Shown: in pieces, positions 404-64,000 of the stretch
How positions within the stretch are numbered: position 1 is the first letter of the stretch
Layout: every line of letters begins with the position of its first letter
Assembly (NCBI GenBank): GCA_943736015.1
Contig: OX031060.1
Span: 1,880,001 to 1,944,000 of the forward strand
Source of the DNA: Tridacna crocea
Lineage: Eukaryota > Mollusca > Bivalvia > Cardiida > Cardiidae
Direction of reading: 5' to 3'
DNA: 64,000 nucleotides
Notes under the pieces: generated by a model
What the model was told of the DNA's origin: nothing
What the model saw: only the letters and a program-made list of their open reading frames with translations
Databases searched by the model: none
Made by a program: the position numbers and the translations under genes

Positions 404-632
404 TTAACTCATTACTAAACGACAAAATTTTAGTTTTGTCAAAATCAAAGGCACTTGCAGACGACAACATAAAAGTGACTGAAAAATTGAAATTCATTTT
501 GTGAAGGGTAGAAAACATTGTTGGAAAAGGAGAAAATGCTGGTTACCAGCATTTTCTCCTTTTCCCACAATGTTTTCTAAAGGCTTCTTTCTCAGGGTCA
601 TCAAAAATGGGGATTATGTGGTAATGGGTTAA
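404..632 (-). mobile_element. MITE-A, intact 229 bp
   Basis: First complete copy. TTAA at both ends, tips CTCATTAC and GTAATGGG. From left to right it has the long flank (motif GCAGACGACA), the hairpin with loop TGGTTACCA, and the short flank (TCAGGGTCAT). It is a non-autonomous element and would need a transposase from elsewhere; the TTAA target suggests a piggyBac-type enzyme (inference). The hairpin arms run from about 509 to 576. There is no coding capacity. Confidence 0.92.
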
Positions 633-953
633 CCATGAGTTCAAAATATGGCCAAAGAAACAGTTGAATTTTTTATGAGATAAGCCAATTCCACATAAAT
701 ACTTAACTATTTACAACTTGGCTATTGAAAAAAACTTATAAAAATTTGGGTGGGAAAGATGCAATAATTTCTAGTATTTCATCATGGCTTCTGTACATGC
801 AAACATGCAAGAGACATTTTTTTTTTCCTCATCCAACCAGTCTTAAAAGTCCTTATGGTCACTTTTACTTATTTTGATATGCTTTGCATTATCTAGAATA
901 GTAATTTGGGTAAATTTTCCGGTAGCAAAGATAGAGCTCTATACAGTGACTTT
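633..953. other. Non-coding, no feature seen
   Basis: AT-rich spacer. Nothing recognisable. Confidence 0.4.
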
Positions 954-1354
954 CTGTGTTGTAGGTTAAATCTGTATTGCAGAGAAATGCAACTGACTTT
1001 AAGTAACAAATATGAACAAAGACAAATTAATAAACCTTTCATTGCATAAAGAGCTGGTAGAAGGCGTTTAACCCATTACCACACAATCCCTACTTTTGAC
1101 GCCCCTGAGAAAGAAGCCTTTTGAAAACACTGTTGGAAAAGGAGAAAATGCTGGTAACCAGCATTTTCTCCTTTTCCCACAGTGTTTTCTACCCATCCCA
1201 GAACAAATTTCAACTTTTCAGTCACCTTTATTTTGTCTTCTGCAAATGCTTTCAATTTGAACCAGTCTAAAATTTTGTCGTGTGGTAAAGAGTTAAAACA
1301 TGTAAATCTGGGAAAAAACATTGAAGAAATTTGTCACGCGTGGCAGCCATTTTG
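954..1354 (+). repeat. Segment duplicated at 6977-7151, here split by a MITE
   Basis: 954-1067 and 1297-1354 together match 6977-7151 (for example CTGTGTTGTAGG, AGAAGGCGTTTA and TGGCAGCCATTTTG, with few changes). The 229-bp MITE at 1068-1296 is absent from the other copy, so this is the occupied version of the site. Confidence 0.85.
1068..1296 (+). mobile_element. MITE-A, intact 229 bp
   Basis: Tips CCCATTACC and GGTAAAGAG, TTAA on both sides. The outer stem reads AACACTGTTGG on the left and CCCACAGTGTT on the right, so the AACACTG/CAGTGTT form differs from the common AACATTG/CAATGTT form in both arms. Inserted in the segment that is unoccupied at 7091. Confidence 0.95.
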
Positions 1355-1677
1355 TTCTTTTTCTGGAGACAACTCGAGTAACAGATGAAATGCATGGTTT
1401 TCTCTATGTTCGGCATTTAAATTGAAAATATTTGTATTTCAAACAAAGAGTTAATAAATATGCAAGCAACAGGTATGTTTAAATCCTAGTTTTATGCTCT
1501 AGTTGCAATTTATATTTTAGAGTTCAACACGCGCACAAAATCTGTGTGGAACTTTCAACTAATTTTGTCGTGATCGTCTCTATACCCAGAGGCAACCAAT
1601 CGAAAAGTGACATCGCCTTTGGGGGCAGTTATTTGCACTAGGTGAATAGCTTAACTTGCACGATTAACTTACATCAT
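1297..1677. other. Non-coding spacer
   Basis: After the duplicated segment ends at 1354 I see only unclassified AT-rich DNA. Confidence 0.4.
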
Positions 1678-1755
1678 TTAATTCATTACCACACAATCCC
1701 CAACTTTTAACAACCCTTTTTTGAAAAGGCTCTTGAAAACAATGTCAGAAATGTG
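1678..1755 (+). mobile_element. MITE-A, left end only
   Basis: TTAATTCATTACCACACAAT and the short flank are kept. The copy stops just inside the left hairpin arm (AAAACAATGTCAG). Confidence 0.75.
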
Positions 1756-1975
1756 GACCCTTGCTGTATTTCCAGGCAGTTTCACACTGTCTGTCTTTAT
1801 AAAGATATTCTTGTTGCAGTTGGTATAGGGTTGACTCTGTTATCTTCCATGATTTATCTACCTGAGCCTCATAAATCATGAAATCATGCAATAATTACAA
1901 TAGGATCAAGCACTGTCTTTACCTGTACTATGAGTTTCTACTCTCCGGTGCTTTTGCTGTTCTGCATATTAAATT

Positions 1976-2205
1976 TTAACCCCTTGCCATACAATCCAGA
2001 GTTCTAACGACCCTGACGAAGAGGGCTTTTGAAAACATTGTAGGGAGAGGAGAAAATGGTTGTAACCAGCATTTTCTCTTTTTCCCACAATGTCTTTTAC
2101 CCTGTCTTGGATAATATTCCATATGGTAATCACATTCAGTGAGTTTTGTTTGCAAATGCTTTGAATTTGGACATTTCTAAAATACTGTTGTCTTGTAAAA
2201 AATAA
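1976..2205 (+). mobile_element. MITE-A, diverged full length
   Basis: Starts TTAACCCCTTGCC. Hairpin is complete with changes (AAAATGGTTGTAACCAGC). The right tip has decayed to TCTTGTAAAAAAT with no clean TTAA. Confidence 0.8.
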
Positions 2206-2330
2206 TAAATGCTGCAAGAGAATATTGATTGATTCATGATGTTTTATAAGCGGTGAAGACAGGATGAATTACGTGATCACCCATGGCATACGGTAAGGTG
2301 GGTGACCAGGTGGCATCCAGTTCTTTGTCC

Positions 2331-2830
2331 AGAGCATAACTTTGTCATCTCCAGTCTGATTGACTTGAAACTTGGCCTTTGTATTTGTTGCAATAATAGG
2401 GAGTGCAGTGCAAAAGAACCATTACTCTACCTTGTGCTGTCTTTGAGTTATTTCCCTTTGGTTGCCAATTTTACAGCATTTTCTGCTTGTCAGGATTATA
2501 ACTTTGTCATCTGTTGTCTGAACATCTTCAAATTCGGTATGCAAAATTGTTGAAAAATTTTGGAGTGCAGTGTATAAGAACCACATCTCTTCCTAGCACA
2601 AATTTTTAGTTATTCTCCCTTTGATCTTCATTTTTATTGTATTTCTTGCTTGCCCAGAGCATAACTGTGTCATCTTAAGCAAGAATGACTTGAAATATGG
2701 TATTCTTATTTGTTGCAATATTTGCAAGTGCAGTGCTCAAGAATTGCAACTCTACGTCATGCTGTCTTTGAGTAATTTCCCTTTGATCATCATTTTTACA
2801 GCAATTAGTCCTGTTGCTATCAGAGTAAGT
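2331..2830 (+). repeat. Three tandem units of about 160 bp
   Basis: The phrase AGCATAACTTTGTCATC (with variants) begins near 2331, 2492 and 2656, giving periods of 161 and 164 bp. Each unit also has GAGTGCAGTG and TCTTTGAGTTATTTCCCTTT. Unit size and wording resemble the 160-bp tandem cores of bivalve satellite and pearl-type elements (family knowledge, not searched here). Flanks near 2280 include GATCACCCATGGC, possibly an element head. Confidence 0.75.
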
Positions 2831-2839
2831 CCAAACTTA

Positions 2840-3600
2840 CCACAGTGAATCTCTGTGATGTTTAGTTTGTACATGTGACTTTTGAAATTCTAATATCAGC
2901 AGGTAATCTAGATTTGAAGCCATTTTCACTGACAAGCCCTTGCAAAGCTTTTGTCTCACTGATATTTTGACTGTAACTGGTGGGTATTCTGCAAGGACTC
3001 GAAAATATGATTGTAAATAAGTCTGGTACTGTCCAAAAAGATTATTTTACCACAGCCAATGAGAATTGGTTTGTCTTGGGATAAAGTTAGACTGTCAGCA
3101 AATATGGATCATGGTAAAAAGAAATAGAGGGAATCTATTGCTTGTTGCACTACCTGGCACGTGACTGAGAAAACTATTGAAAGTGGTGTAAAACACCTTT
3201 CAAACTAACACATAGGCCTAAATGCTGTGATTAGAAATCAGCATGGTCTCTCTACAGGAAGAAGCTGAAATTGAAATCTCTCCATGTGATTATTCAGGCT
3301 GTCTATGGTCTCAGACAATTTTCTAAATGGAGAATTTTTCCCTGTATTTATACAACTGAATGTCTGGAAAAAATCTAATATTTCTGTTCATTTTATCAGG
3401 CATGCTTTGTAATTGTTCCACTTTCGAAAGATTACTGTCTGCCCACTCGAAGAGTTTCTCCGTCCATTATTTTGTTCCATATTTAGCCACAAGAACATGA
3501 AAGCATTGTGCTTTTACGTAATGATTGGCTATTATTTTTTTGCTGTTGAAACATGCAAGAGCCTACACTGTGTAAATGAGCTGTGCTCTGTGAAAAGGGG
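2840..3600. other. Non-coding, weak SINE tail near 3170
   Basis: Mostly unclassified. GAAAGTGGTGTAAAACACC near 3178 resembles the 3' tail of the SINE-2 copies listed elsewhere, but the match is short. Confidence 0.35.
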
Positions 3601-3629
3601 GCTGAACGCATCTGCGAAAAGTATCGAAC

Positions 3630-3712
3630 CATGTCAACCTGTGCAGGCTGACCTGGGCCAAAACTTTTCGCTATTGGTCAATTTTCTGTTTGTCAGAAGA
3701 CCAAGCTACCTC
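3630..3712 (+). repeat. Repeat with GTGCAGGCTGA core, copy 1
   Basis: CTGTGCAGGCTGACCTGG, then AAAACTTTTCGCTATTGG and TCTGTTTGTCAGA. The same order of words occurs at 4655-4742 and 16796-16881. An open frame running through here (3413-3760) is therefore not good evidence of a gene. Confidence 0.65.
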
Positions 3713-3760
3713 ATGACTGAGTCAGATATTGAAAAAAAAAAGGCTCTTATGGACCCATAA

Positions 3761-3991
3761 TTAACTCTTTACCCCACAAGGCATTTCTATGGTATCTCTA
3801 ATTGATCCTAAATAACAGCAAGGCTGAAGCTGTTTCTTATGTGTATATGACACCTTTTGATAGTATAGAAAACATTATGGCAAAAGGTGAAATTGCTTGT
3901 TATGAGCAATTTCACCTTTTGCCACAATTTTTTCCACAGGCTCCTTAACAAACAGTGCGTAGAAATGAGTATCTATGGCGTAAAGGGTTAA
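3761..3991 (-). mobile_element. MITE-B, near intact
   Basis: First MITE-B copy. Tips CTCTTTACCCCACAAGG and GCGTAAAGGG. Long flank has ACAGCAAGGCTGAAGC; the hairpin is AAAGGTGAAATTGCTTG with GAGCAATTTCACCTTTTGCC. Short flank has CAGTGCGTAGAAATGAG. Same length and hairpin position as MITE-A, but different sequence outside tips and outer stem. Confidence 0.9.
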
Positions 3992-4030
3992 GTGATGACC
4001 ATGGACTTGTATCATGCATAACAGATGTAT

Positions 4031-4260
4031 TTAACTCTTTACCACATGACAGAATTTTAGACTTGTCCAAATTGAAAGCATTTGCAGACGACAAAACTAA
4101 TTGTGAATCAAAATTTGAAATTTCATTTGGAAAGGGTAGAAAACATTGTGGGAAAAGGAGAAAATGCTGGTTACCAGCATTTTCTCCTTTTCCCACAATG
4201 TTTTCAAAGGCTTTCTTTTTCAGGGTCGTTTAAAGTCGGGATTGTGTGGTAAAGAGTTGA
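4031..4260 (-). mobile_element. MITE-A, 230 bp
   Basis: TTAACTCTTTACCACATGAC on the left; right end GGTAAAGAGTTGA, so one target base is changed. Hairpin perfect over most of its length. Confidence 0.9.
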
Positions 4261-4269
4261 TTGGTTTGT

Positions 4270-4820: not shown

Positions 4821-4899
4821 TTGTCGGTTTGCTTCCAAAATCTCATAACTACAGCTTGTTACAAGCTGTAGTTACGAGGTTTTGGAAGCAAACCGACAA
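4821..4899. repeat. Isolated near-perfect palindrome, 39-bp arms
   Basis: Arm 4821-4859 begins TTGTCGGTTTGCTTCC; arm 4861-4899 ends GGAAGCAAACCGACAA. Only two arm positions do not match and one base separates the arms. It is unrelated in sequence to the MITE hairpins, and I see no target duplication or tip motif at its borders. Confidence 0.85.
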
Positions 4900-5150: not shown

Positions 5151-5154
5151 GCCC

Positions 5155-6033: not shown

Positions 6034-6103
6034 GACCAAAGAAAGATTGTCATATTTCGTAAGTTTTGAAAGACTGAATTGCTGCAATGTGCCCAAGTCT
6101 CCA

Positions 6104-6227
6104 GGGCCTGTATTCACCAACCATACTTAAGAATGTAAGTTTGTCTTATTCTTCAGAATTTTCTACATTTGTAAACTTGGAGAATAGGACTAAGAATATT
6201 CTCAAGAATGTTTGGTGAATATGGTTC
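6104..6227. mobile_element. Fold-back element, GGGCCTGTATTCACC family
   Basis: Ends GGGCCTGTATTCACCAACCA and TGTTTGGTGAATATGGTTCC are inverted, and the interior is also roughly palindromic (AAGAATGTAAG with CTCAAGAATG). Second copy at 24063-24265. Confidence 0.75.
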
Positions 6228-6631: not shown

Positions 6632-6860
6632 TTAACCCTTTACCCCATAAGGCATTTCTATGGTATCTCTAGTTCACCCTAAATAACAGCAAGGATGAAG
6701 CTGTTTCTTATGTGTATATGACACCTTTTGATAGCATAGAAAACATTGTGGCAAAAGGTGAAATTGCTCGTCACGAGCAATTTCACCTTTTGCCACAATG
6801 TTTTCCAAAAGCTCATATAAGCAATGCGTAGAAATGAGTATCTATGGAGTAAAGGGTTAA
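6632..6860 (-). mobile_element. MITE-B, intact 229 bp
   Basis: TTAACCCTTTACCCCATAAG and GGAGTAAAGGGTTAA. Hairpin loop region GCTCGTCACGAGC centred at 6772, which is 140 nt from the left end and 88 from the right. Confidence 0.95.
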
Positions 6861-6903: not shown

Positions 6904-7312
6904 ATAACCCTTTACCAGAATACAAAGTTTGCGACAAATCCAATTTGAAAGCAGTTGCAGATGATAAAATAAATCTCTGTGTTGTCGGTTTAATCTGTAT
7001 TGCAGCGATATGCAACTGAGATTTAGTAACAAATAAGAACAAAGACAAATTAATAAACCTTTCATTACATAAAGAACTTGTAGAAGGCGTTTACATCTGT
7101 AAATCTCGGAAAAAACATTGACGAAATTTGTCATGGGTGGCAGCCATTTTGATTGTTAAAGAAAGATTGAAAAATGTATTGGGAAGGATAGAAAACATTG
7201 TGAGAAAAGGAGAAAATGATGGTTACCAGCATTTTCTCCTTTTCCCAAAATGGTTTCAAAGGGCTTTTTTCTCAGGGTCTTCAAAAGTCAGGATTGTGTG
7301 GTAAAGGGTTAA
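6904..7312 (-). mobile_element. MITE-A split by an unrelated 189-bp segment
   Basis: 6904-6976 is the long-flank tip (CCCTTTACCAGAATAC to GATAAAATAAA). 7166-7312 resumes at ATTGAAAAATGTATTGGGA and runs through the hairpin to GTAAAGGGTTAA. Only about 12 bp of MITE sequence is missing at the break. Confidence 0.8.
6977..7165 (+). repeat. Paralog of 954-1354 lacking the MITE
   Basis: Continuous version of the segment interrupted at 1068. At the site it reads GAAGGCGTTTACATCTG, so the target is TTAC rather than TTAA here. It lies inside another MITE-A, so this segment has itself moved or been copied. Confidence 0.85.
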
Positions 7313-10747: not shown

Positions 10748-11199
10748 TTGAATCCTTTACCGAACAATCCCTGGTTTTTACGACTCTGAGATAGAAGCCT
10801 TTTGAAAACATTGTGGGAAAAGGAGAAAATGCTGGTTACCAGCATTTTCTCCTTTTCCCTTAATATTTTCTACCCTGCTGGAAACAAATTTCAATTTTTG
10901 AGTTACGTTTATTTTGTTGTCTTAACTCTTTCCCAAACAAGCCCTGGTTTTTACGTGTCTGCAGTAAAAGTCTTTGAAAACACTGTGGGAAAAGAAGAAA
11001 TTGCTCGTAACGAGCAATTTCTCCTTTTCCCACAGTGTTTTCTACCCTTTTTGAGAGCTTTCTGCAATTTTCTCCAAATCTAAAATTGTCATATGCAAAC
11101 TCTTTCAGTTTGGAAGGGTCCAAAATTTGTTGTTTGGGAAATGGTTAGGTGCTTTCAATTTGGACCAGTTTAAAGTCTTATCATTTGGGAAAGGGTTAA
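10748..11199 (+). mobile_element. MITE-A interrupted by a MITE-C
   Basis: 10748-10921 gives the short flank, hairpin and start of the long flank, ending TTTTGTTGTC. 11149-11199 resumes with GTGCTTTCAATTTGGACC and ends GGAAAGGGTTAA. The break holds a complete MITE-C. Confidence 0.9.
10922..11148 (+). mobile_element. MITE-C, 227 bp, nested in MITE-A
   Basis: First MITE-C. Tip CTCTTTCCCAAACAAGCC, short flank GGTTTTTACGTGTCTGCAG, hairpin AAATTGCTCGTAACGAGCAA, long flank ending AGTTTGGAAGGGTCC. Target is TTAA on the left, TTAG on the right. Short flank and inner stem differ clearly from MITE-A. Confidence 0.9.
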
Positions 11200-11365: not shown

Positions 11366-11594
11366 TTAACCCTTTACCTAACAAGCCCTTGTTTTTACGT
11401 GTCTGCAGTCCAAGTCTTTTGAAAACACTGTGGGAAAAGCAGAAATTGCTCGTAAAGAGCAATTTCTCCTTTTCCCACATTGTTTTCTACCCATTTGGAG
11501 AACTTTCTACCATTTTTATAAAATTTGAAATTGTCGTCTGCAAACTCTTTTGAGTTTGTAAGAGTTTGAAATTTGTTGTTTGGGAAAGGGTTAA
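11366..11594 (+). mobile_element. MITE-C, intact 229 bp
   Basis: TTAACCCTTTACCTAACAAG to GGGAAAGGGTTAA. Hairpin loop GCTCGTAAAGAGC is centred 88 nt from the left end. Its right TTAA is also the left TTAA of the next copy. Confidence 0.93.
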
Positions 11595-11820
11595 CTTATT
11601 ACCAAACGATAAAATTTTAGGCTTATCCAAATCAAAAGTATTTGCCGACAACAAAATAGAAGTGACTGAAAATTTGAATTCTTTTTTTGTGAAGGGTAGA
11701 AAACATTGTGGGAAAAGGAGAAAATGTTGGTTACCAGCATTTTCTCCTTTTCCCACATTGTTTTTGAAAGCCTACTGTCTCGAGGTCGTCAAAAGTAGGG
11801 ATTTTGTGGTAATGGATTAA
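11591..11820 (-). mobile_element. MITE-A, 230 bp, abuts the MITE-C
   Basis: Begins with the shared TTAA at 11591-11594. Stem and both tips complete; short flank has a CGAGGTCGTC variant. Confidence 0.92.
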
Positions 11821-12454: not shown

Positions 12455-12605
12455 GTTATTATTATTATTATTATTATTTTATTGTTTTTCCGCCAAAATG
12501 GCGAGCATTTTACAATAAAAATAAAAGGAAACAATAAGAATGAAGTAACAAAAAAAAATAGTAGGTATATGTCATAAAGAAAGAAAACCAATGTACGGCC
12601 AGATT
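12455..12605 (-). repeat. (TTA)n-tailed repeat, inverted copy at 42625-42750
   Basis: (ATT)n then TTTTATTGTTTTTCCGCCAA, AAATGGCGAGCATTTTAC and GTAGGTATATGTCA. The reverse complement, with tail AATAATAATA, is at 42625-42750. The tail next to a shared body suggests the 3' end of a retroposon (inference). Confidence 0.6.
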
Positions 12606-14762: not shown

Positions 14763-15130
14763 AACTGCGCTAGTGAAAAAACATTGAAGTTGTCTGAAAA
14801 TAGGACTGGAAGCCTCTGAATGCATAACATTCTCTTCTATCATTTTTCTTTTGCAAAAACTTAGATTGAGACCATTGGTGCTTGGGTTCAGTAAACTGGA
14901 AAGAATGAGCTGGGTCAGATCCAACCCACAAAATGGCTGCCAATAACCTCAGCCAATCAAGTCCACACAACAAAATGGCTGCCAATAATCCAGCCAATCA
15001 AGTTAAAGCTTATTTCAAAGCAAATACCACAGTCACAGCAGTGTTTTGATGTTTGTTCCAAGTTGTTACCGTCAGTAATGTTACAAACATTCATAATTTG
15101 GCAGGAACTTTTCTAATGGATGGAAATAAC
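14763..15130. other. Non-coding; short tandem at 14925-15005
   Basis: CACAAAATGGCTGCCAATAA and CAACAAAATGGCTGCCAATA, each followed by a CAGCCAATCAAGT stretch, form a two-unit direct repeat of about 50 bp. Otherwise nothing recognised. Confidence 0.5.
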
Positions 15131-15205
15131 CCGTAACCCTTTTAACAAGCTAAACCAAGTGTTACTGACCCTGAGAAAGTATGCATATGAAAATTTGTTT
15201 CCTTT

Positions 15206-15462
15206 TATGTTTTCTGCTGTTTTCAACATTATTTCAGTCTTATTGCGCCACTGCACCTGTCCATGCTTTCCTGGAGTCTCTTTTACCAGTACTCTGCAAA
15301 GTTTTCTTTCCAAGCCACTGGCTGCTTTCCCACATAACCATCATCAAGACATTGTGGATCAGCGATGGGAGAGGAATGAATTCTTTCACATTATGACTAC
15401 TACCATCAATCCTTGGAAAGAAATTTGCCAAGCCAGGATTCAAACCTGTTCTCAAGCCCCGC
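15206..15462 (-). mobile_element. SINE-2, minus-strand copy
   Basis: On the minus strand: B-box-like GGTTTGAATCCTGGC near 15445, then GCAGCCAGTGGCTTGG, CTGGTAAAAGAGACTCC and tail GACTGAAATAATGTTGAAAA at about 15238-15219. The tail recurs at 35630, 51040 and 57610. An open frame of 153 residues spans it and is not a gene in my view. Confidence 0.65.
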
Positions 15463-15538
15463 AGAGCTTGTATATGTCATCTGGAAATTCTTTGAATTTA
15501 GAGAAATGTAGAATTTATGTAAATCTTCATGATAATAT

Positions 15539-15752
15539 GATAACACTTTACCACATGATCCCTGAGAAAGAAGCCTTTTGAACTATTGCATAAGGAGGAG
15601 AAAATGCTTTTAACCAGCATTTTCTCCTTTTTTCATAATGATTTCTTCCCTTCCTTAGACTAGGGTCAATCTTTCCGTCTCGTTTATTTTGTCATCAGCA
15701 AATGCTTTCAGTTTGGACTAGTCTGAAATTTTGACCTGTGGTAAAGGGTTAA
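15539..15752 (+). mobile_element. MITE-A, diverged
   Basis: Left ATAACACTTTACCACATGAT with a short-flank deletion; stem AGGAGGAGAAAATGC; right GGTAAAGGGTTAA. Confidence 0.82.
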
Positions 15753-16891: not shown

Positions 16892-17120
16892 TTAATCCAT
16901 TACCAAATAACAATATTTTAGGCTGGCCCAAATTGAAAGCATTTGCAGACGACAAAATAAAAGTGACTGAAAATTTTAAATTTGTTTTGTGAAGAGTAGA
17001 AAACATTGTGGGAAAAGGAGAAAATGCTGGTTACCAGCATTTTCTCCTTTTCCCACAGAGTTTTCTAAAGGCTTCTTTCTCGGGAGCGTCAAAAGTATGG
17101 ATTGTGTGGTAATAGGTTAA
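16892..17120 (-). mobile_element. MITE-A, intact 229 bp
   Basis: TTAATCCATTACCAAATAAC to GTAATAGGTTAA. Stem intact except near the outer right arm (CCACAGAGTTTTC). Confidence 0.92.
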
Positions 17121-17345
17121 ACCTTCAAATATCACTCCTATGTGTTTTCCTACTTATTCTGCAGTGTACTTCTAAATAACCTACTACAAACGGCATATAG
17201 AAACATCGTGGGAGAAAATGTAGCAGTTGCTTATCCCATGCATTTGCTCCTTCTCCCACAATGTTCTCAATGTCACCCTAAAACCTTCAAATATTACTAC
17301 TGTGTGTTTTTCCATGTATTCTGTAGTATTTCTGAAAATAATCTG
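17121..17345 (+). repeat. 65-bp direct repeat flanking a decayed hairpin
   Basis: 17121-17187 (ACCTTCAAATATCACTCC onward) and 17279-17345 (ACCTTCAAATATTACTAC onward) are about 80 percent alike. Between them is an imperfect hairpin with ATCGTGGGAGAAAATG and CATTTGCTCCTTCTCCCAC. Confidence 0.6.
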
Positions 17346-21869: not shown

Positions 21870-22098
21870 TTAACCCTTTACCCCATATGGCATTCCTATA
21901 GTATCTGTAATTGGCTCTAAATAACAGCAAAGATGAAGTTGTTTCTTATGTGTATGTGACACCTTTTGATAGCAAAGAAAACACTGTGACAAAAGGTGAA
22001 ATTGCTCGTCACGAGCAATTTCACCTTTTGTCACAGTGTTTTCCAAAGGCTCCTACAAGCAGTGCGTCAAAATGAGTATCTGTGGAGTAAAGGGTTAA
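21870..22098 (-). mobile_element. MITE-B, intact 229 bp
   Basis: Two stem changes are matched in both arms: AACACTGTGACAAAAGG on the left and CCTTTTGTCACAGTGTT on the right, against AACATTGTGGC/GCCACAATGTT elsewhere in MITE-B. Confidence 0.95.
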
Positions 22099-22677: not shown

Positions 22678-22874
22678 TTACCCATTACCAAACAATCCCT
22701 ACTTTTGACGACCCTGAGAAAGACGCCTTTAGAAAACATTGTGGGAAAAGGAGAAAATGCTGGTAACCAGCATTTTCTCCTTTTCCCACAATGTTTTCTA
22801 CCCCCGTCACAAAACAAAATTAAAACTTTCAGTCACTTTTATTTTGTCGTCTGCAAATGCCTTCGATTTGGACA
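22678..22874 (+). mobile_element. MITE-A part of an A/C/A chimera
   Basis: TTACCCATTACCAAACAATC, full hairpin and long flank up to GATTTGGACAAGCC. There the sequence switches to MITE-C; ACAAGCC is common to both families at the join. Confidence 0.88.
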
Positions 22875-23032
22875 AGCCCTAGTTTTTACGTGTATGCAGT
22901 AAAAGTCTTTTGAAAACTGTGGGAAAAGGAGAAATTGCTCGTAACGAGCAATTTCTCCTTTTCCCACACTGTTTTCTACCCTTTTTGAGAACTTTCTGCC
23001 ATTTTCTCCAAACCTAAAATAGTCGTCTGCAA
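22875..23032 (+). mobile_element. MITE-C part of an A/C/A chimera
   Basis: Enters at AGCCCTAGTTTTTACGTGTA, has the MITE-C hairpin GAAATTGCTCGTAACGAGC and long flank, and leaves at GTCGTCTGCAAA, a stretch both families share. No TTAA at either join. Confidence 0.85.
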
Positions 23033-23246
23033 AATTTTAGCACCCCTGAGAAAGAGGCTTTTGGAAAATACTGGGGGAAAAGTAAAAAATGCTGGTAACC
23101 AGCATTTTCTTCCTTTCCCACAATATTTTCTACCCTATCAAAGTCAGAAATCATCATATCAATCAGATAATGATGAAGATTTACTTTGTTGTCTGCAGGT
23201 GCCTTGAATTTTTTCCCGAACAAAAATTTTTCTTGGTCAAGAATAA
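23033..23246 (+). mobile_element. MITE-A part of chimera, decayed right end
   Basis: Starts inside the short flank (GCACCCCTGAGAAAGAGGC), hairpin ATGCTGGTAACCAGCAT, long flank diverged, right tip TTCTTGGTCAAGAAT. Confidence 0.7.
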
Positions 23247-24062: not shown

Positions 24063-24265
24063 AATCCAGGGCCCATATTCACCAACCATTCTAAAGAATA
24101 TCCTTAGTCTTATTCTCCAAGAATGTCTAAGTTTGAAAGTAACACAACTTCTGATTGGCTAATCCAAATGGTTTAGCCAATCAGAAGTTGCATTACTTTC
24201 AAATTTAGAAATTCTGGAGACTGAGACCAAGAACCTTCTTAAGAATGGTTGGTGAATACAGGCCC
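24063..24265. mobile_element. Fold-back element, GGGCCTGTATTCACC family
   Basis: Palindromic almost throughout: GGGCCCATATTCACCAACCA and TGGTTGGTGAATACAGGCCC at the ends; CAACTTCTGATTGGCTAA and TTAGCCAATCAGAAGTTG at the centre. About 203 bp. Confidence 0.88.
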
Positions 24266-25169: not shown

Positions 25170-26640
25170 GCTGAAACTGGAAAAAATCTTTAAAAATCTT
25201 CTTGTGACAAACCATAAGGCCGGGAGCATTCATACTTTGTATGAAGCATCATTGGGTGACCCTTTACCAAAATTGTTAAAATTATTCCCCTGGGGTCATA
25301 TTTGGGCTTTGCCCGGGCGCACCCTATTTTACATAGAAACAAAGAAGGAAAGCTTTAAAAAATCTTCTTCTGACAAACCATAATGGCTAGAGCATTCATA
25401 TTTGGTATGTAGCATTATCTGATGATCCTCTACCAAAATTGTTAAAATTATTCCTTTGCTGTCATATTTGGGCTCTGCCCGGGCGCACCCTATTTTAAAA
25501 TCTTTAAAAATCTTCTTGTGACAAACCATAAGGCCGGGAGCATTCATATTTTGTATGAAGCATCATTGGGTGACCCTTTACCAAAATTGTTAAAATTATT
25601 CCCCTGGGGTCATATTTGGGCTTTGCCTGGGTGCACCCTATTTTACATAGAAACAAAGAAGGAAAGTTTTAAAAAATCTTCTTCTGACAAACCATAATGG
25701 CTAGAGCATTCATATTTGGTATGTAGCATTATCTGATGATCCTCTACCAAAATTGTTAAAATAATTCCTCTGCTGTCATATTTGGGCTCTGCCCAGGCGC
25801 ACCCTATTTCAAAATCTTTAAAAATCTTCATGTGACAAAACATAAGGTTGGGAGCATTCATATTTCGTTTGAAACATCATTGGGTGACCCCTTACCAAAA
25901 TTGTTAAAATCATTCCCCTGGGGTCATATTTGGGCTTTGCCCGGGCGCACTCTATTTTACATAGAAATTTAGAAGGGAATCTTTCAAACTACTTCTGGTG
26001 ACAAATCATAATGGCTAGAACATTCCTATTTAGTGTTTAGCATTAACTGATGATCTTCTACCAAAATTGTTGAAATTATCCTTCTGCGGTCATATTTGGG
26101 CTCTGCCTGGGTGCACCCTATTTTACCATCTTTAAAAATCTTCTTGTGACAAACCATAAGGCGGAGGGTGTTCATATTTTGTTTGAAGCATTATTGGGTG
26201 ACCCCTTACCAAAATTGTTAAAATTATTCCCCTTGGGTCATATTTGGGCTTTGCCTTTGGCACACCCTATTTTACATAGAAACAAAGAAGGAAACCTTTA
26301 ATAAATCTTTTTCTGACAAACCGTAATGGCTAGAGCATTCATATTTGCTATGTAGCAAAATCTGATAATCTTCTACCTAAATTGCTAGAATTATCCCTCT
26401 GCGGTCATATTTGGGCTCTGCCCGGGCGCACCCTATTTTACATAGAAACAAAGAAGGAAATCTTTTAAAAATCTACTTGTGACAAATCCATAAAGGCTAG
26501 AGCATTCATATTTTGCATGTAGCATCATCTAGTGACCCTTTATAAAAATAATTAAAATTATCCCCATTGCGGTCATATTTTGGCTTTGTGCCCTGGTGCA
26601 CACTATTTCACATGGAATCATAGAAAGAAATTTTTAAAAT
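25170..26640 (+). repeat. Tandem core with two-unit higher order
   Basis: The landmark CACCCTATTT (or variant) falls at 25320, 25486, 25634, 25800, 25948, 26114, 26263, 26429 and 26599. Intervals alternate 166, 148, 166, 148, 166, 149, 166, 170. One unit has ACAAACCATAAGGCCGGGAG, the next AACCATAATGGCTAGAGC, so the repeat evolves as dimers of about 314 bp. Short open frames are a by-product. Confidence 0.92.
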
Positions 26641-32725: not shown

Positions 32726-32954
32726 TTAACTCATTACCAAACGACAAAATTTTAGACTTATTCAAATTGAAAGCATTTGCAGACGACAAAATAAAGGTAA
32801 CTGAAAAATTGAAATTTGTTCTGGGAAGGGTAGAAAACACTGTGGGAAAAGGAGAAAATGCTGGTATTAAGCATTTTCTCTTTTTCCCACAGTGTTTTCA
32901 AAAGGCTTCTTTCTCAGGGGCGTCAAAAGTAGGGATTGTGTGGTAATGGGTTAA
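32726..32954 (-). mobile_element. MITE-A, intact 229 bp
   Basis: Clean ends. Loop reads GCTGGTATTAAGC, so the palindrome centre is broken. Confidence 0.93.
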
Positions 32955-32975
32955 ACAACTCAAAGGAAGAAAGTT

Positions 32976-33204
32976 TTAACCCTTTACCACACAATGACGA
33001 CTTTTAACACCCCTGAAGGAGAAAGCTTTTGAAAACATTGTGGGAAAAGGAGAAAATGCTGGTAACTAGCATTTTCTCCTTTTCCCACAATATTTTTTAC
33101 CCTGCTGGTAACAAATTTCAATTTTTGAGTTACGTTTATTTTGTAGTCTGCAAGTGCTTTCAATTTGGACCAGTCTAAAATTTTATCTTTTGGTAAAGGG
33201 TTAA
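32976..33204 (+). mobile_element. MITE-A, intact 229 bp
   Basis: TTAACCCTTTACCACACAAT to GGTAAAGGGTTAA; short flank has ATGACGACTTTTAACACCCC as in 63478 and 54227. Confidence 0.93.
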
Positions 33205-37198: not shown

Positions 37199-37370
37199 TA
37201 GGGGTGTAACAATACATCGATATTTTGACTGTCCCGATAGGTTGCTAGAGAACTCGTACCCTGGAGAACTCGTACTCTGGAGAACTCGTACCCCAATCTG
37301 AAGGGTACGAGTTCTCTGGAGAACTCGTACCCTGGGTACGAATTCTCCAGAGAACTCGTACCCTGCAGAT
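37199..37370 (+). repeat. GAACTCGTACCC inverted array, left
   Basis: TAGGGGTGTAACAATACATC, then alternating AGAACTCGTACCCTGG and GGTACGAGTTCTCTGG words. Reverse-complement match to 41575-41685, including the CAATCTGAAGGGTACGAG stretch, so the two are the arms of a structure about 4.5 kb long. Confidence 0.8.
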
Positions 37371-41574: not shown

Positions 41575-41700
41575 GGGTATGAGTTCTCCAGAGAACTCGT
41601 ACCCAGGGTACGACTTCTCTGGAGAACTCGTACCCTTGAGATTGGGATACGAGTTGTCCAGGGTACGAGTTCTCCTGATACCTCCCGATAGCAATGCATC
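41575..41700 (-). repeat. GAACTCGTACCC inverted array, right
   Basis: GAGTTCTCCAGAGAACTCGT, AGGGTACGACTTCTCTGG, GATTGGGATACGAGTTGTCC and CTCCCGATAGCAATGCATC. The order is that of 37199-37370 read on the other strand. Confidence 0.8.
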
Positions 41701-42624
41701 GATTGCTTTGTCCGACATCAATAACAGTCGCCGATATTTTGTTCAACAATCGATACTTTCGAAAGTCGACACTAGAAATTATTGCTAGCTTGTTAGATCT
41801 AATATGCTGTTTGTGGTTCTTTTTTGAAAGAATAAAATAGTGAATAAAGACGAATTCAACGTTGAGTAGGGCCTACTTTCATTGTTACTATAAGGCATGC
41901 TCGATTTTAGTCTTTGGTATACCTACCCCTTTTGGACATTACAGATCGATTCCATATGTTCGAGAAGGCATTAAAAAATATCTTATCCTTTTCACGTGTG
42001 TTAACTATTGTCTTAATTTTGAGATAATTTTCATATTAACGTACTCAATAGCTTGAATAATCGGCAAATGATTGGAAATGTTATTTATTGTCCATGGTCG
42101 ATTTTGCCTGACTTTTTCGTACTTACTAATCGAGCGCGACCATATAAGTATTTATGTCGTCTGTCGTGGCTGCTAGTTTTGAGATCGTGCAGTTGGAAAA
42201 GCAAATGTTTGAGCCCATTTTGGATTTCTTAAAGTGGGAGATACTGCTGATAAAAAGCAAGTAGCATGTAGATTATATTATTTGATACTGAAACACGATG
42301 GGAACACGACAACTTTGCGTAACAAACATCCGACATTCGCTGTCGAGCCCCGGACACCGGGTATTCAGGAAGATATCTTATGAATTCGGGTGCACAAACT
42401 GCGCCACTCTAAGCTTTATCTTGGAACAAAAATATATATAGATGATAATACAAAAGGAAAAATAAATGCATAAGTCTTTTTCCACCAATCTTTATCAAAA
42501 TTATGTTTACACTAATTTTAAACTTTCATAACTTAATAATGGGACCCCTGATTTTTTTCAGGTTGCATTCAGTGGACCCCCGTTTTTCGAAAACTCTGTA
42601 AAAGTTAGTCTGGCCGTACATTGA
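41701..42624. other. Non-coding, no feature seen
   Basis: Right after the array, CAATCGATACTTTCGAAAG resembles the outer part of the inverted structure. Further on, nothing recognised. Confidence 0.35.
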
Positions 42625-42750
42625 TTTTCTCTCTTTCTGACATATACCTACTATTTTTTTGTTTGTTATTTCATTCTTACTGTTTTCTTGTATTTTATTG
42701 TATAATGCTCGTCATTTTGGCGGAAAAACAATAAAATAATAATAATAGGT
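42625..42750 (+). repeat. (TAA)n-tailed repeat, partner of 12455-12605
   Basis: TGACATATACCTACTATTTT, AATGCTCGTCATTTTGGCGG, AAAAACAATAAAATAATAAT. Confidence 0.65.
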
Positions 42751-57199: not shown

Positions 57200-57428
57200 T
57201 TAACCGTTTCCCGAACCACAAACTTTTGGACTAGACCAAATTGAAAGCATTTGCAGATGACAATTCAACTCTTGCTGAAAAGATGATTTCTGTCTATGAT
57301 AGGGTAGAAAACATTGTGGAAAAAGGAGAAAATGCTGGTTACCAGCATTTTCTCCTTTTCCCACAATGTTTTCAAAAGGCTACTATTCCAGACCCATAAA
57401 AACCAGGGATTGTTTGGGAAAGGGTTAA
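57200..57428 (-). mobile_element. MITE-A subfamily with AACTCT flank, 229 bp
   Basis: TTAACCGTTTCCCGAACCAC to GGGAAAGGGTTAA. Long flank has CAATTCAACTCTTGCTG and GATTTCTGTCTATGATAG; short flank CCAGACCCATAAAAACC. Shared with 58426-58655 and in part with 24736, so a distinct subfamily. Confidence 0.93.
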
Positions 57429-57800: not shown

Positions 57801-57805
57801 TTAAT

Positions 57806-58200: not shown

Positions 58201-58429
58201 TTTACTCTTTACCACACAAGAAAATTTTAGACTGGTCCAAATTGAAAGCATTTGCAGACGAAAAAATAAAGGTGACTAAAAAATAGAAATTTGTTCGGGG
58301 AAGGGTGGAAAACACTGTGGGAAAAGGAGAAAATGCTGGTTACCAGCATTTTCTCCTTTTCCCACAGTGTTTTCAAAAGGCTTCTTTCTCAGGGGCATCA
58401 AAAGTAGGGATTGTGTGGTAATGGGTTAA
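58201..58429 (-). mobile_element. MITE-A, intact 229 bp
   Basis: Left target TTTA, right TTAA shared with the next copy. Stem AACACTGTGGG/CCCACAGTGTT matched. Confidence 0.94.
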
Positions 58430-58655
58430 CCCTTTCCCAAACGACAAACTTTTGGACTAGACCAAATTGAAAGCATTTGCAGACGACAATTCAACTCTCT
58501 CTGAAAAGATGATTTCTGTCTATCATAGGGTAGAAAACATTGTGGGAAAAGGAAAAAAATGCTGGTTACCAGCATTTTCTCCTTTTCCCACAATGTTTTC
58601 AAAAGGCTACTATTCCAGACCTGTAAAAACCAGGGATTGTTTTGGAAAGGGTTAA
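58426..58655 (-). mobile_element. MITE-A, AACTCT subfamily, 230 bp
   Basis: TTAACCCTTTCCCAAACGAC to GGAAAGGGTTAA. Left arm GGAAAAAAATGC but right arm GCATTTTCTCC: here the A-run change is not matched, unlike 47533-47763. Confidence 0.93.
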
Positions 58656-59732: not shown

Positions 59733-60157
59733 TTAACCCTTTACCATACAATCCCTGGTTTTAACGACCTAGAGGAGAATATGCTGTAAGCTAGTATTGT
59801 CTCCTTTTTTCACCATGTATTCTCTTTCCATTCAAAGACTTCTCCCCATCATCTGATACACATTAAAATTAACCCATTACCACACAATCCCTACTTTTGG
59901 CGACCCTGAGAAAGAAGCCTTCAGAAAACATTATGGGAAAAGGAGAAAATGCTGGTAACCAGCATTTTCTCCTTTTCCCACAATGTTTTCTACCTGTCAC
60001 AAAACAATTTTCAAATTTTCAATCAGTTTTAGTTTGTTGTCTGCAGATGCTTTCGATTTGCACAAGCCTAAAATTTTGTCGTTTGGTAATGAGTTAATGT
60101 TTTGTCTGTAAAATTTTGAATGTTTTCAATAAAGTTTGCATAATGGTAAAGAGTTAG
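59733..60157 (+). mobile_element. MITE-A interrupted by another MITE-A
   Basis: 59733-59868 has TTAACCCTTTACCATACAAT, a reduced hairpin and ATCATCTGATACACATTAAA. 60098-60157 resumes TGTTTTGTCTGTAAAATTTT and ends TGGTAAAGAGTTAG. Confidence 0.8.
59869..60097 (+). mobile_element. MITE-A, intact 229 bp, nested
   Basis: TTAA at both ends; near-consensus throughout except AACATTATGGG in the left arm. Confidence 0.95.
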
Positions 60158-60293
60158 GGATCAGAAAGACAGGTTTATTGGTTTGCTGGGATATGCCAGC
60201 AGAAGGAAATGCCATTTCTTGATACACTGGCATGCCAAACTGTGCATTTAACCCATATTGCGCCTTTCAAGACTCGTAGTTACCTTTAGGGCC

Positions 60294-60350
60294 AATGTAG
60301 ATCAAGATCAGGCTGCACAAAACGTGCAGCCTGATCTTTGATCTGCACTG
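60294..60350. repeat. GATCAGACTGCACA hairpin, good copy
   Basis: GATCAGGCTGCAC and GTGCAGCCTGATC: the A-to-G change against other copies is matched on the other side. Confidence 0.8.
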
Positions 60351-60594
60351 TCTGCTTTGCTGATACTCCATAGACGAAAGCAGCCAAGGAATTAAATTTA
60401 TTTGGGTTGTATATCTAGGATGATAAGTCTGATAAGTTTATTTGGTGTTGTAAGGGTTGATTTTCCAGGTAAGTTGAACATTCATGCTCTTCTCAGCTAA
60501 ATTAGCGATGCCTTACCTTCCTTCAGTCTGTAAGAAAAATCTCCTTGTGACAGTTCTATTGCTGTTGAAATCAGAAGGCCTGCAGAATACTGGA

Positions 60595-60652
60595 CAGTGA
60601 AGATCAGTGACCAGACTGTATATTCCCTCCATTGTGATTATTTATCTACACT
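60595..60652. repeat. GATCAGACTGCACA hairpin, decayed
   Basis: AGTGAAGATCAGTGACCAGA and TGATTATTTATCTACACTG; centre lost. Confidence 0.5.
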
Positions 60653-60739
60653 GTAGCATAAGGATTTTTTGTTGCTTCCAAAAAGATGTTGTTGTTTAAC
60701 CCTGTATATCTGTCAAAACAGAAGTTGAAATAGAGGAAA

Positions 60740-60962
60740 GTCTACCGCATAATGACGACTTTTAACGACCCTGAGGAAGAAGCCTTTTGGAAACATTGTG
60801 GGAAAAGGAGAAAATGCTGGTAACCAGCATTTTCTCCTTTTCCCACAATGTTTCCTACCCTTCACAAATCAAATTTGAATTTTTCAGTCACATTTATTTT
60901 GTTGTCTGCAAATGGTCTCAATTTGGACCAGTCTATAGATTTGTTGTTTTGTAAAGAGTTAA
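60740..60962 (+). mobile_element. MITE-A, left tip decayed
   Basis: CTACCGCATAATGACGAC; complete hairpin; right GTTTTGTAAAGAGTTAA. Confidence 0.9.
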
Positions 60963-61029
60963 GCTTTACATTATGAGTCATGTAGATGCACTAATTTTGG
61001 GAATTCTTTTTTTCCTGATAACCTTAGCC

Positions 61030-61247
61030 ATGGCTCACCTTGGTATCTCAGTGGTTAGGTTGTCCATCCATTGACCTGGTGGTTGCGGGTTTGATACTCG
61101 GTTGAGTTAAGATTCCTTTCCAGCAACTTTTTGCACCTCAGCATTGATGCATGTGAGAAAAGTTTAAGACAGTGACTTCGAGAAAAAGTTGTGTCAGCAA
61201 CTGGTGTAAGAAAGTGCACTGACCACTGTGATAATTATGACCTCAGC
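61030..61247 (+). mobile_element. SINE-1, plus-strand copy
   Basis: A-box-like TGGTATCTCAGTGGTTAGG and B box GGTTGCGGGTTTGATAC, then TTCCTTTCCAGCAAC, GATGCATGTGAGAAAAGTTT, AAAAAGTTGTGTCAGC and TGTAAGAAAGTGCACTGACC. Confidence 0.78.
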
Positions 61248-61249
61248 TG

Positions 61250-61476
61250 TTAACCCATTACCATGCAATCCCTACTTTTGATGCCTCTGTGAAAGAAGCC
61301 TTTAGAAAACATTGTGGGAAAAGGAGAAAATGCTGGTAACCAGCATTTTCTCCTTTTCCCACAATGTTTGCTATCCTTCACAAAACAAATTTCAAATTTT
61401 CAGTCACTTTTAGTTTCATCTACAAATGCTTTCTATTTGGACAAACCTAAAATTTTGTTGTTTGGTAATGAGTTAA
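61250..61476 (+). mobile_element. MITE-A, 227 bp
   Basis: TTAACCCATTACCATGCAAT to GGTAATGAGTTAA. Begins three bases after the SINE. Confidence 0.94.
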
Positions 61477-61600
61477 AGGTGGGTATTTAGAATTTTCACA
61501 TCTCACCAAATTAAAAAAAAAAATATATATATATATATATCACTGATATTTATATGAAAAAACAATAGAAATCCTCAAAAATTAAGAATCATGAAATTAC
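61473..61600 (+). mobile_element. TTAAAGGTGG element, left-end fragment
   Basis: Uses the TTAA of the previous MITE: TTAAAGGTGGGTATTTAG, then TCTCACCAAATTAAAA, (AT)n and TATTTATATGAAAAAAC. Confidence 0.7.
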
Positions 61601-61607
61601 AAAAAGA

Positions 61608-61709
61608 AAGGGAGAAAGGAAAAGGAGAAAATGCTCTTTAACAGCATTTTCTCCTTTTTCCACAATTTCAAAAGATATCCTTCCCAGGGTAGTTGTGGTA
61701 ATAAGTTAA
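61608..61709 (-). mobile_element. MITE-A, hairpin and short flank
   Basis: GGAAAAGGAGAAAATGCTC and AACAGCATTTTCTCCTTTT; GGTAATAAGTTAA. Long flank replaced by the preceding repeat. Confidence 0.8.
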
Positions 61710-61934
61710 CTCTTTACCACACAATCCTGACTTTTAACGACCCTGAGAAAGAAGCCTTTAGAAAACATTGTGTGAAAAGGAGAAAATGCTGGTAACCAGC
61801 ATTTTCTCCTTTTCCCACAATGTTTTGTATCCTTCCCAAATAAAATTTCAATTTTTGAGTTACAGTAAGTTTGTCGTCTGCAAATGCTTTTAATTTGGAC
61901 CAGTCTATTATTTTGTTGTTTGGTAAAGAGTTTT
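61706..61934 (+). mobile_element. MITE-A, 229 bp
   Basis: TTAACTCTTTACCACACAAT; right end GGTAAAGAGTTTT, so the last two target bases are changed. Shares its left TTAA. Confidence 0.93.
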
Positions 61935-62331
61935 ATCTGCAGGACTAAAGAGTTGAAACTATCTGCAGGACAAGTAAAACCCAGTCCAGAATTTTTATCG
62001 TTCTGGTGCTGATTGCTTATTCTGTAGAAGGGAGGTAAATGTGTTACAACTATTTTGATAATGATTGAAGATGGAATCATGAGTTCTCTTTCTTGGTCAG
62101 ATGAGGAATCATAGATTGGATGTTTTTATGGACAATGTTGAAAAACGCAGGAATGCTAAACAATTGAAATTGATATTTTTAGTCAGATGAAAAACAGACC
62201 AAAATAATTTTGGTTGTTTTATGGCTGAATTGCCAGGATATTACAAGAAATATGCAATCTTGATCTGCAATGTTTGAAAGTTCAACTGTGGCTATGATAA
62301 GTGCTGGCTCCACTTTAGGGTTATTAATAAA
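61935..62331. other. Non-coding, no feature seen
   Basis: Unclassified. Confidence 0.35.
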
Positions 62332-62541
62332 TTAACTCTTTACCAAACAATCCCTGGTTTACACAACTCTGTGAAAGAAGCCTTTTGAAAACATTGTGGG
62401 AAAAGGAGAAATGCTGGTAACCAGCATTTTCTCCTTCTCCCACAGTGTTTTTTGCCCTTCCCAAAACAAATTTAAATTTTTAAGTCATGTTAATCTTGTT
62501 CTGTGCTAATGCTTTCAATTTGGAACAGACTAAAATTTTGC
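62332..62541 (+). mobile_element. MITE-A, right tip lost
   Basis: TTAACTCTTTACCAAACAAT; complete hairpin; ends GACTAAAATTTTGCC. Confidence 0.9.
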
Positions 62542-62668
62542 CAAAGTATCAAGTGCTTTGATGACCTTGTGAAAGGGTTTTGAAAACATTGTAGGGAAAA
62601 GGAGAAAATGATGGTAATTTTCTCTTTTGCCTAAAATAATTTACAACTTCAGAAACAATTTCTAAGAT
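62542..62668 (+). mobile_element. MITE-A, decayed middle
   Basis: GCTTTGATGACCTTGTG, AACATTGTAGGGAAAAGGAG and GATGGTAATTTTCTCTTTTG. Confidence 0.65.
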
Positions 62669-62899
62669 TTAAACTCTTTACCAAACGACAAAAGTGCCGT
62701 ACCAGTCCAAATTGAAAGCATTTGCAGACGACAACCTAAGTAAGGCTCAAAAATTGAAATTTGTCTTTGAAAGGGCAGAAAACATTGCAGGAAAAGGAGA
62801 AAGTGGTGGTTACCAGCATTTTCTCCTTTTCCTACAATGTTTTCAAAAGGCTTCTTTCTGAGGGTCATTAAAAGTCGGGATTGTGTTGTAAAGAGTTAA
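62669..62899 (-). mobile_element. MITE-A, 231 bp
   Basis: TTAAACTCTTTACCAAACGA to TTGTAAAGAGTTAA. Stem GCAGGAAAAGG and CCTTTTCCTAC. Confidence 0.92.
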
Positions 62900-62901
62900 G
62901 G

Positions 62902-63103
62902 CATAGTTTTCCCTTTCCCAAACAATGAATTTAGAGACTTTTCCAAACTGAGGTCATCCACAGATAAATTCAGTGTGGGTGCAAATGAGCCGTAGGTCTC
63001 TGTTACTGTAGAAAACATTCAGGGGAAAGGAGAAAATTCTGGTTACCAGCAAAAACCGTATTTTCCATGCTCATGAAAACCAGGGATTGTTTCATAAAGA
63101 GGG
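62902..63103 (-). mobile_element. MITE-A, decayed
   Basis: CCCTTTCCCAAACAATG, TTCCAAACTGAGGTCATCCA, GGGGAAAGGAGAAAATTC and ACCAGGGATTGTTTC. Confidence 0.6.
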
Positions 63104-63108
63104 AATAT

Positions 63109-63166
63109 GTCTGCAAATGCTTTTGTATTTGACAAGTGTAACTTTTGGTTATTTGGTAAAGGGTTA
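63109..63166 (+). mobile_element. MITE-A, right tip only
   Basis: GTCTGCAAATGCTTTTG and TATTTGGTAAAGGGTTAT. Confidence 0.65.
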
Positions 63167-63477
63167 TGTAACTATTTCTACCTTGTTGGAAAGAGATACC
63201 ATAATTTTAGACAATATACAAACAACTTCTACAGAAACAAATTAAATATTCAGGGCTAAAGTTTCTAAGGGACTAAGGGTCGAAATGATACCCTCGAAGG
63301 TGTAAGGGGCCATTAGGCAGGATTCCAATAGTTTCCCAATCAGTCCTGGTTCTTCCTCCAATAATTTCATTACTGGCACGTCACAGATGGACGATGCTCC
63401 TGGAGGACTCACAATTTTAACAAGTCTGGTGATTCATTGATGACCTGGGCCCAGACTTGGTCTACCCTTTACCATAT
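63167..63477. other. Non-coding, no feature seen
   Basis: Unclassified. Confidence 0.35.
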
Positions 63478-63708
63478 TTAACCCTTTACCACACAATGAT
63501 GACTTTTAACACCCTTGAAAGAGAAGGCTCTTGAAAACATTGTGGGAAAAGGAGAAAGTGCTTGTTACCAGCATTTTTTTTTCCTTTTCCCACAGTGTTC
63601 GCTACCCTATCACGGAAAAAGCATTTCATACGAGCCACATTAAAACTGTTATCTGTAAATGTTTTCAATTCAGACTGGTCTTAATTTGTGTTGTATGGTG
63701 AAGGTTAA
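63478..63708 (+). mobile_element. MITE-A, 231 bp
   Basis: TTAACCCTTTACCACACAAT to GGTGAAGGTTAA. Right arm has an expanded T run (GCATTTTTTTTTCC) without partner in the left arm. Confidence 0.92.
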
Positions 63709-63790
63709 CCTTTTACTGAACAATTCCGTGTTTGACCCTGAGAAAGAACCTTTCTGAAAACATTGTAGGAAAAGGACTGAATGACTTTGA
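63705..63790 (+). mobile_element. MITE-A, left part
   Basis: Shares the TTAA at 63705: TTAACCTTTTACTGAACAAT, then GAAAACATTGTAGGAAAAGG, then lost. Confidence 0.75.
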
Positions 63791-63909
63791 AAACAGAGTA
63801 CATGGATTTGTTGTCATAATCTGGTTGTCTGTCCCCTAAATTTATCCAAGTGAAAAACTGCCCTTTCATTATATTTTTGTCATTGCTGAAGGCATTAACC
63901 TCAGACTTA

Positions 63910-64000
63910 TTAACTCCTTACCAAATGACAATGTTTTGGGCTTGCCCAAATCTAAAGCATTTGCAGACAACAAAATAAATGTGATGGAAAATTTGAAATT
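63910..64000 (-). mobile_element. MITE-A, cut by window end
   Basis: TTAACTCCTTACCAAATGAC, long flank to GGAAAATTTGAAATT. Confidence 0.88.

Follow-up and report, generated by a model that had tools for sequence, protein, structure and literature searches.

Short TTAA elements in a 64-kb window of Tridacna crocea share one layout and a palindrome whose arms tend to change in mirror image

Introduction

Elements of the kind described here are already known: the CMITEs of Acropora corals are uniform TTAA-targeting miniature inverted-repeat transposable elements (MITEs) with a conserved interior (PMC2872659), and MER85, a human MITE of PGBD3, has an internal palindrome that has been demonstrated to be bound by the PGBD3 protein (PMC3459987). 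We analyzed 64,000 nt of Tridacna crocea, contig OX031060.1 (GCA_943736015.1); this whole stretch is called the window below, and all coordinates are window positions. It is densely filled with short TTAA elements that share a length near 229 bp and an off-center hairpin, and the arms of this hairpin are conserved between lineages and tend to change in mirror image. Comparisons with published systems follow the available parts of the papers cited.

The present elements resemble CMITEs in their TTAA target, CCCTTT-type tips and uniform size, and CMITEs have been linked to piggyBac-like elements (PMC2872659). The CMITE interior is also more conserved across families than the tips, as it is here between two lineages termed A2 and D, in which 8 of 32 tip positions and 0 of 64 hairpin arm positions differ. 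CMITEs are however ∼100 bp long, compared with a modal 229 bp here, and the available text does not call their conserved interior of 75 bases palindromic, a comparison made by description and not by sequence. Intact CMITE copies also form tandem arrays in corals, whereas we find nine end-to-end junctions against ∼30 simulated. MER85 is likewise a TTAA MITE with an internal palindrome toward one end, but it is 140 bp long with an imperfect 16-bp palindrome (PMC3459987), compared with ∼229 bp and a near-perfect palindrome of ∼67 bp here. We also take as alike the ends of piggyBac and piggyBat, which are asymmetric and whose internal palindromes are bound by the C-terminal domains of the transposase as dimers (PMC7351741, PMC11707139). 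In piggyBac the site is a palindromic 19-bp internal repeat bound via a dimer of cysteine-rich domains, and the asymmetric ends are required in cells (PMC7351741). Unlike the hairpin described here, these palindromes are short and lie near the tips, and the available text of both papers mentions no long interior hairpin. Kolobok elements share the TTAA target and are widespread in molluscs (PMC9587614), but their termini are 5'-RR ... YY-3' while the consensus tips here begin with CC or CT, which does not fit Kolobok. The literature searched gave no account of TTAA MITEs that carry a long palindrome changing in mirror image, most subscription journals and Repbase-type databases lying outside the search.

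Results

Shared layout of the elements

Searches with family profiles recovered 133 non-overlapping pieces that cover 23,860 bp (37.3%) of the window, which is AT-rich (34–39% GC per 4-kb step) and lacks long open reading frames (ORFs), the longest from stop to stop being 158 amino acids. The pieces comprise 123 of A-type and 10 of B-type, lie about equally on both strands (68 on +, 65 on −) and in 123 of 133 cases have E < 1e-5; 71 of them are full-length copies (62 A-type, 9 B-type). In six 64-kb control sequences (one reversed, five dinucleotide shuffles) the A model gave 0 matches and the B model 2. Single-sequence nhmmer searches yielded 117 non-redundant pieces, a number near the "about 110" noted in a first-pass annotation of this DNA.

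The modal length of full-length copies is 229 bp, a value taken exactly by 27 of the 71; 53 fall within 227–231 bp and 62 within 223–235 bp, the whole range being 198–242 bp. Counted from one end, the hairpin center is base 89 in 48 copies; counted from the other, it is base 141 in 37, in agreement with the first-pass estimate of about 88 and 140 nt. When a tip weight matrix trained on these same elements was scanned with offsets left free, tips clustered at 85–89 nt (63 tips) and 135–144 nt (68 tips) from hairpin centers, with every other 5-nt bin out to ∼315 nt holding 7 or fewer. Three copies that the first-pass annotation had singled out as 229 bp including both TTAA (1068–1296, 6632–6860 and 11366–11594) are indeed so. 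Its tip pattern CCY(T/A)TT(A/C)CC, on the other hand, has to be loosened. The B and C consensus and, at their left ends, D and the overall A consensus have the terminal motif CC[C/T]T; the exceptions are CCCAT at the left tips of A1 and A2 and CTCTTT at the right tips of A, where the consensus reads CTCTTTACC. The copies referred to below are as follows.

404–64000, both strands: 133 element pieces from the profile searches
1068–1296, + strand: A-type copy of subfamily A1, 229 bp with both TTAA, flanks matching a paralogous uninterrupted site
1123–1189, + strand: hairpin of this A1 copy, 67 nt, with 33-nt arms and a 1-nt center
1157: center base of this hairpin, 89th from the left end of the A1 copy
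6632–6860, − strand (chosen so that the hairpin lies nearer the left end): B-type copy, 229 bp
6739–6805, − strand: hairpin of this B copy, 33-nt arms, 100% complementary
11366–11594, + strand: C subfamily copy, 229 bp, right TTAA common with the A copy at 11591–11820
57200–57428, − strand: D lineage copy, 229 bp, aligning without gaps to the A consensus
58426–58655, − strand: second D lineage copy, 230 bp
10751–11199, + strand: A copy (10751–10922 and 11149–11199) split by a C copy at 10922–11148, a nested insertion

Two further arrangements of copies were observed. At 22680–23241 three A-type copies, all truncated and the middle one C-like, follow one another head to tail without intact ends between them, as if recombination and not insertion had joined them. 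The longest inverted repeat of the window, 231 nt, is formed at 32726–33204 by two oppositely facing A copies ∼20 nt apart.

Families and kinship

We count two families, A (with subfamilies A1, A2, C and D) and B, where the first-pass annotation had three that differed in most internal sequence. That description suits B but not C: the consensus sequences of A and C can be aligned over their full length with 180 of 225 positions identical, and C is therefore a subfamily of A. A tree of the 62 A-type copies with hairpin arms excluded separates C, the two-copy lineage D, a young A1 and a larger A2, although many of its nodes are poorly supported. Subfamily scoring used 14 of the 19 copies counted in the A2 clade and 7 copies of A1. 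The best alignment of A with D is gapless over 229 bp, whereas that of A with one C copy requires small compensating gaps, which fit either chance or a constraint on total length.

The spacers of A and B are far more distant. By local alignment shuffles score as well in 345 of 1000 trials for the left spacer and 865 of 1000 for the right, and by global alignment of the left spacer 22 of 1000 shuffles are as good. The spacers nevertheless match when laid side by side without gaps: over 124 bases, B is identical to D at 56, to A1 at 50, to A2 at 49 and to C at 48, where permutation gives ∼33 ± 5 and reaches these values in 0, 2, 4 and 14 of 10,000 trials, respectively (exact permuted expectation for B with D, 33.2 ± 4.9). 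A profile version of this test with all 71 copies gave 46.3 against 33.1 ± 3.5 (0/5000). By part, the signal is strongest in the left spacer and in the final third of the right one, both of which rank first of 25 shifts. Because B keeps this gap-free register with the A-type lineages, a single ancestor that already had the shared layout is the simplest account, and we conclude that A and B are old relatives whose register has been kept. The blueprint was inherited by common descent. The first-pass suggestion of repeated capture around one core is not supported, given a register shared with all four A-type lineages.

The hairpin center of C is that of B and its tips are those of D, which first suggested that hairpins had been swapped between families. 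Such an exchange is unneeded, as the distances fit, without a formal tree test, an unrooted order B – C – D – A with each such pair changing once.

Conservation of the arms and of length

At sites where both D copies agree, A2 and D differ at none of 64 arm positions and at 34 of 123 spacer positions (p = 1e-7); limiting the count to these sites lowered the spacer differences from 40 to 34. Over all sites the arms differ at 1 of 66 positions between A2 and D and at 8 of 66 between A2 and B. The tips are intermediate, A2 differing from D at 8 of 32 positions and from B at 7 of 32. For comparison, changes found in a single copy, which are mostly post-insertion decay, were counted outside CpG sites in 30 copies of A1, A2 and B; the arms have 50 among 1939 and the spacers 139 among 3741. 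The arm–spacer contrast between A2 and D differs significantly from this single-copy contrast (p = 1e-4), a sign that the arms were probably conserved for the most part in lineages that were still transposing. Non-CpG differences within subfamilies are also rarer in arms in A1 (p = 0.02) and A2 (p < 0.0001) and not clearly so in B (p = 0.12).

Indels per substitution number 0.049 in A-type copies and 0.038 in B, and the distance between A and B predicts ∼7.6 spacer indels. At this expectation the probability is 0.0005 that no indel occurs and 0.019 that neither spacer changes in net length. Since this is one comparison at near-saturated distances, and the length match had been noticed beforehand, we regard it as likely, but not as shown, that length itself is constrained. 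The first-pass picture of a superfamily diverging under constraint thus stands as to common ancestry and a hairpin far more conserved than the spacers, its length component being the weaker part (P = 0.019).

Mirrored change in the arms

The arms of A2 and B differ at only four base pairs, all four changed on both sides and all of them complement exchanges (G>C, A>T, A>T and G>C). One mirrored pair separates A1 from A2 and three separate C from A2. Across the 52 of 71 hairpins without a gap in the hairpin (one duplicate row merged), two-sided changes occupy 50 cells compared with 11.4 ± 2.8 in shuffles (0/500) and 4–10 with the arms slid, a cell being a sequence and not an event. In A-type copies, with subfamily differences still included, there are 26 mirrored cells against 6.5 (0/2000). 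Once subfamily differences are allowed for, 15 private mirrored changes remain against 5.1 ± 2.1 expected (0/2000) under a null that preserves hot spots and per-copy mutation load, and shifted registers give 0–2 coincidences; this test covers 65 of the 71 copies, the six with more than six arm gaps being left out. Some of the private changes may come from unsampled subfamilies. Two hairpins serve as examples.

21870–22098, − strand: B copy whose arms carry two private mirrored changes, at pairs 8 and 13
22730–22800, + strand: perfect hairpin with 35-nt arms in the truncated A copy 22680–22878

The RNA fold predicted for 22680–22830 has −62.1 kcal/mol compared with −20.2 ± 3.2 for shuffles (z = −13.2), and no Rfam family matches at gathering thresholds. 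At intact A centers the sole changes are from A to T, in 3 of 39 (p = 0.04 versus the spacer spectrum).

A decayed family-like hairpin (∼17200–17275) was also seen within 17120–17341, flanked by similar direct stretches of ∼60 bp (AACCTTCAAATAT...) with no TTAA tips visible; it is possibly an older element or another hairpin context.

TTAA insertion and element class

Perfect TTAA is present at both ends of 38 of the 71 copies, at one end of 30 and at neither end of 3. Insertion at TTAA is supported by a paralogous empty site in the window.

954–1354: filled site, with flanks 954–1067 and 1301–1354 around the A1 insertion 1068–1296
6977–7151: paralogous empty site, continuous across the point of insertion, one TTAC standing in place of the target TTAA

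The flanks of the filled site are 90% identical to 6977–7090 and 93% identical to 7098–7151. With TTAA targets and CCCTTTACC or CCCTTTCCC tips, the elements fit non-autonomous piggyBac/TTAA-type MITEs, as piggyBac is defined by tips and target in the available text of PMC2872659; CCCAT is among the piggyBac 5' motifs (PMC10813416). They are also small, uniform (53 of 71 at 227–231 bp) and non-coding, with no Pfam domain at cut-off. As the first-pass annotation had stated for genes, no transposase domain was found in the 32 stop-to-stop ORFs of at least 95 amino acids in the window, a search that did not extend to shorter broken remnants, and nothing in these ORFs reaches a curated Pfam cut-off. 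A match to IcmQ at 15117–15578 (E 0.009, 16 bits versus a cut-off of 25) was put down to chance. Exact-match hairpin patterns found nothing in the viral contig or genome contig collections searched.

Two possible biases were rejected. Preferred insertion beside existing copies would give an excess of end-to-end junctions, of which there are 9 compared with 30.0 ± 3.9 in a simulation that assumed no decay of sites. Avoidance of TTAA seemed indicated by 509 occurrences against 678 expected from base composition, but a Markov estimate gives 512 and hence no depletion.

A tip-like motif in the arms

In the consensus sequences of all five lineages, both 12-bp tips find their best interior match at one arm site, CCTTTTSCCACA. 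This site occurs once per arm of the palindrome (one arm of C reads GCTTTTCCCACA). In the ten tip comparisons, 8 to 10 of 12 bases agree. Arms that were shuffled equal the match in 11 to 235 of 1000 trials (more than 100 in three comparisons) and shuffled whole interiors in 6 to 289 of 300. As the motif was looked for after the sequence had been seen and the lineages are not independent, we treat it as a lead only.

Other repeats in the window

Near-perfect hairpins of different sequence lie at 4821–4899 and 24120–24215 (39- and 47-nt arms), the second with related stretches at 6100–6224. Short tandem units built on GGTACGA...TCGTACC-like palindromes occupy 37248–37370 and 41575–41675, and 25183–26639 is a tandem array of ∼150–165-bp units with a higher period of 314 bp. 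A 140-bp dispersed repeat unrelated to the MITEs occurs at 12466–12603 and 42609–42747 in opposite orientation with 91% identity.

Discussion

We propose that the palindrome is a cis-acting site needed for mobilization, with its symmetry kept by selection together with arm-to-arm copying, and we give this proposal an even chance of being right. A piggyBac-like transposase encoded elsewhere would presumably move the elements in trans. The lineages in the window descend from one ancestor of ∼229 bp. Selection during mobilization would have preserved the tips and the off-center palindrome, whereas the spacers between them would have been nearly free to diverge, their net length changing little or not at all. 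By analogy with the shorter palindromes of piggyBac and MER85, the likeliest role of the palindrome would be as a transposase-binding or transpososome-assembly site, and copies that lose it would leave few descendants. Template switching, which homogenizes the arms of inverted repeats in yeast (PMC8604942), may copy one arm to the other and, together with selection for symmetry, would produce mirrored changes. Common descent, insertion at TTAA, the conservation of the arms between lineages and their mirrored change are shown by the data; the piggyBac-type transposase, its binding to the palindrome, the template switching and the constraint on spacing are inferred.

Several points weigh against this proposal. 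The ∼67-bp palindrome far exceeds the 16–19-bp sites of MER85 and piggyBac, and neither a transposase nor an autonomous partner nor movement was seen in the window. C is represented by three copies and D by two. The register between A and B is carried unevenly: the first third of the right spacer ranks fourth of 25 shifts, and the middle third, ranking tenth, gives no register signal. The arms also have mildly fewer single-copy changes than the spacers (p = 0.02), and some of the arm conservation may therefore postdate insertion. As to symmetry, C and A2 differ at one one-sided site besides their mirrored pairs, further pair types are in only weak excess in the 52 hairpins (30 versus 26.9; 39/500), and the excess of mirrored changes falls short of significance when B is taken by itself (3 versus 1.0; 137/2000).

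The palindrome could instead be functionless, with template switching during replication copying the arms and thereby generating mirrored changes. The private mirrored changes do exceed independent decay, the process is known from yeast as cited above, and the A-to-T changes at the center are what flipping of a one-base center is expected to give. By our own reasoning, however, unbiased copying should not lower the long-term rate of change, yet between A2 and D the arms differ at 0 of 64 sites and the spacers at 34 of 123. We therefore prefer selection combined with homogenization and regard homogenization alone as rather unlikely.

Plain shared ancestry, in which the layout is common through relatedness without any constraint, draws on the support for common descent and on the gapless alignment of A with D. 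It is partly disfavored, as the neutral expectation for A and B makes both the missing indels and the unchanged spacer lengths improbable and as conservation is much stronger in arms and tips than in spacers, and we judge it decidedly unlikely. A role at the RNA level, with transcripts forming a long stem that serves the element or the host, for example as a small-RNA source or decoy, would suit the very stable predicted fold and the paired changes in the arms. Against this, Rfam gave no match at its gathering thresholds, the copies lie about equally on both strands, and the four A2–B exchanges convert G-C to C-G or A-U to U-A without a G-U intermediate; we consider such a role improbable. Independent gain of one hairpin core by unrelated TTAA elements, to which the poor local alignment of A and B spacers and the apparently tipless decayed hairpin at ∼17200–17275 might lend some color, is very improbable in view of the gap-free register with all four A-type lineages, the shared tips and the single pair of tip offsets in the window.

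Returning to the palindrome as a site needed for mobilization, the tip-like arm motif raises a more particular version of the idea. The hairpin might be a built-in pair of transposon ends, the element then consisting of two end-pairs fused at their backs, of which the short side holds the tip-to-arm pair and the long side the arm-to-tip pair. We think this quite unlikely. If it were true, a transposase assembly that needs both end-pairs at a fixed spacing would account at once for the unvarying blueprint, for the mirroring of the arms and for the freedom of the spacers, and long internal palindromes would be a cis-requirement of some TTAA transposons.

Why some MITE families such as CMITEs conserve a non-coding interior was left open in the available text of PMC2872659. 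Here the conserved region is a palindrome, and its symmetry itself gives a test: changes that break the palindrome should be rare between lineages that are still moving and ordinary in dead copies. The mirrored changes help to tell selection apart from copying between the arms. Should the palindrome prove to be a transposase site, the elements would provide a natural series of variants for the internal sequences that MITEs need in order to fill up to a third of a region.

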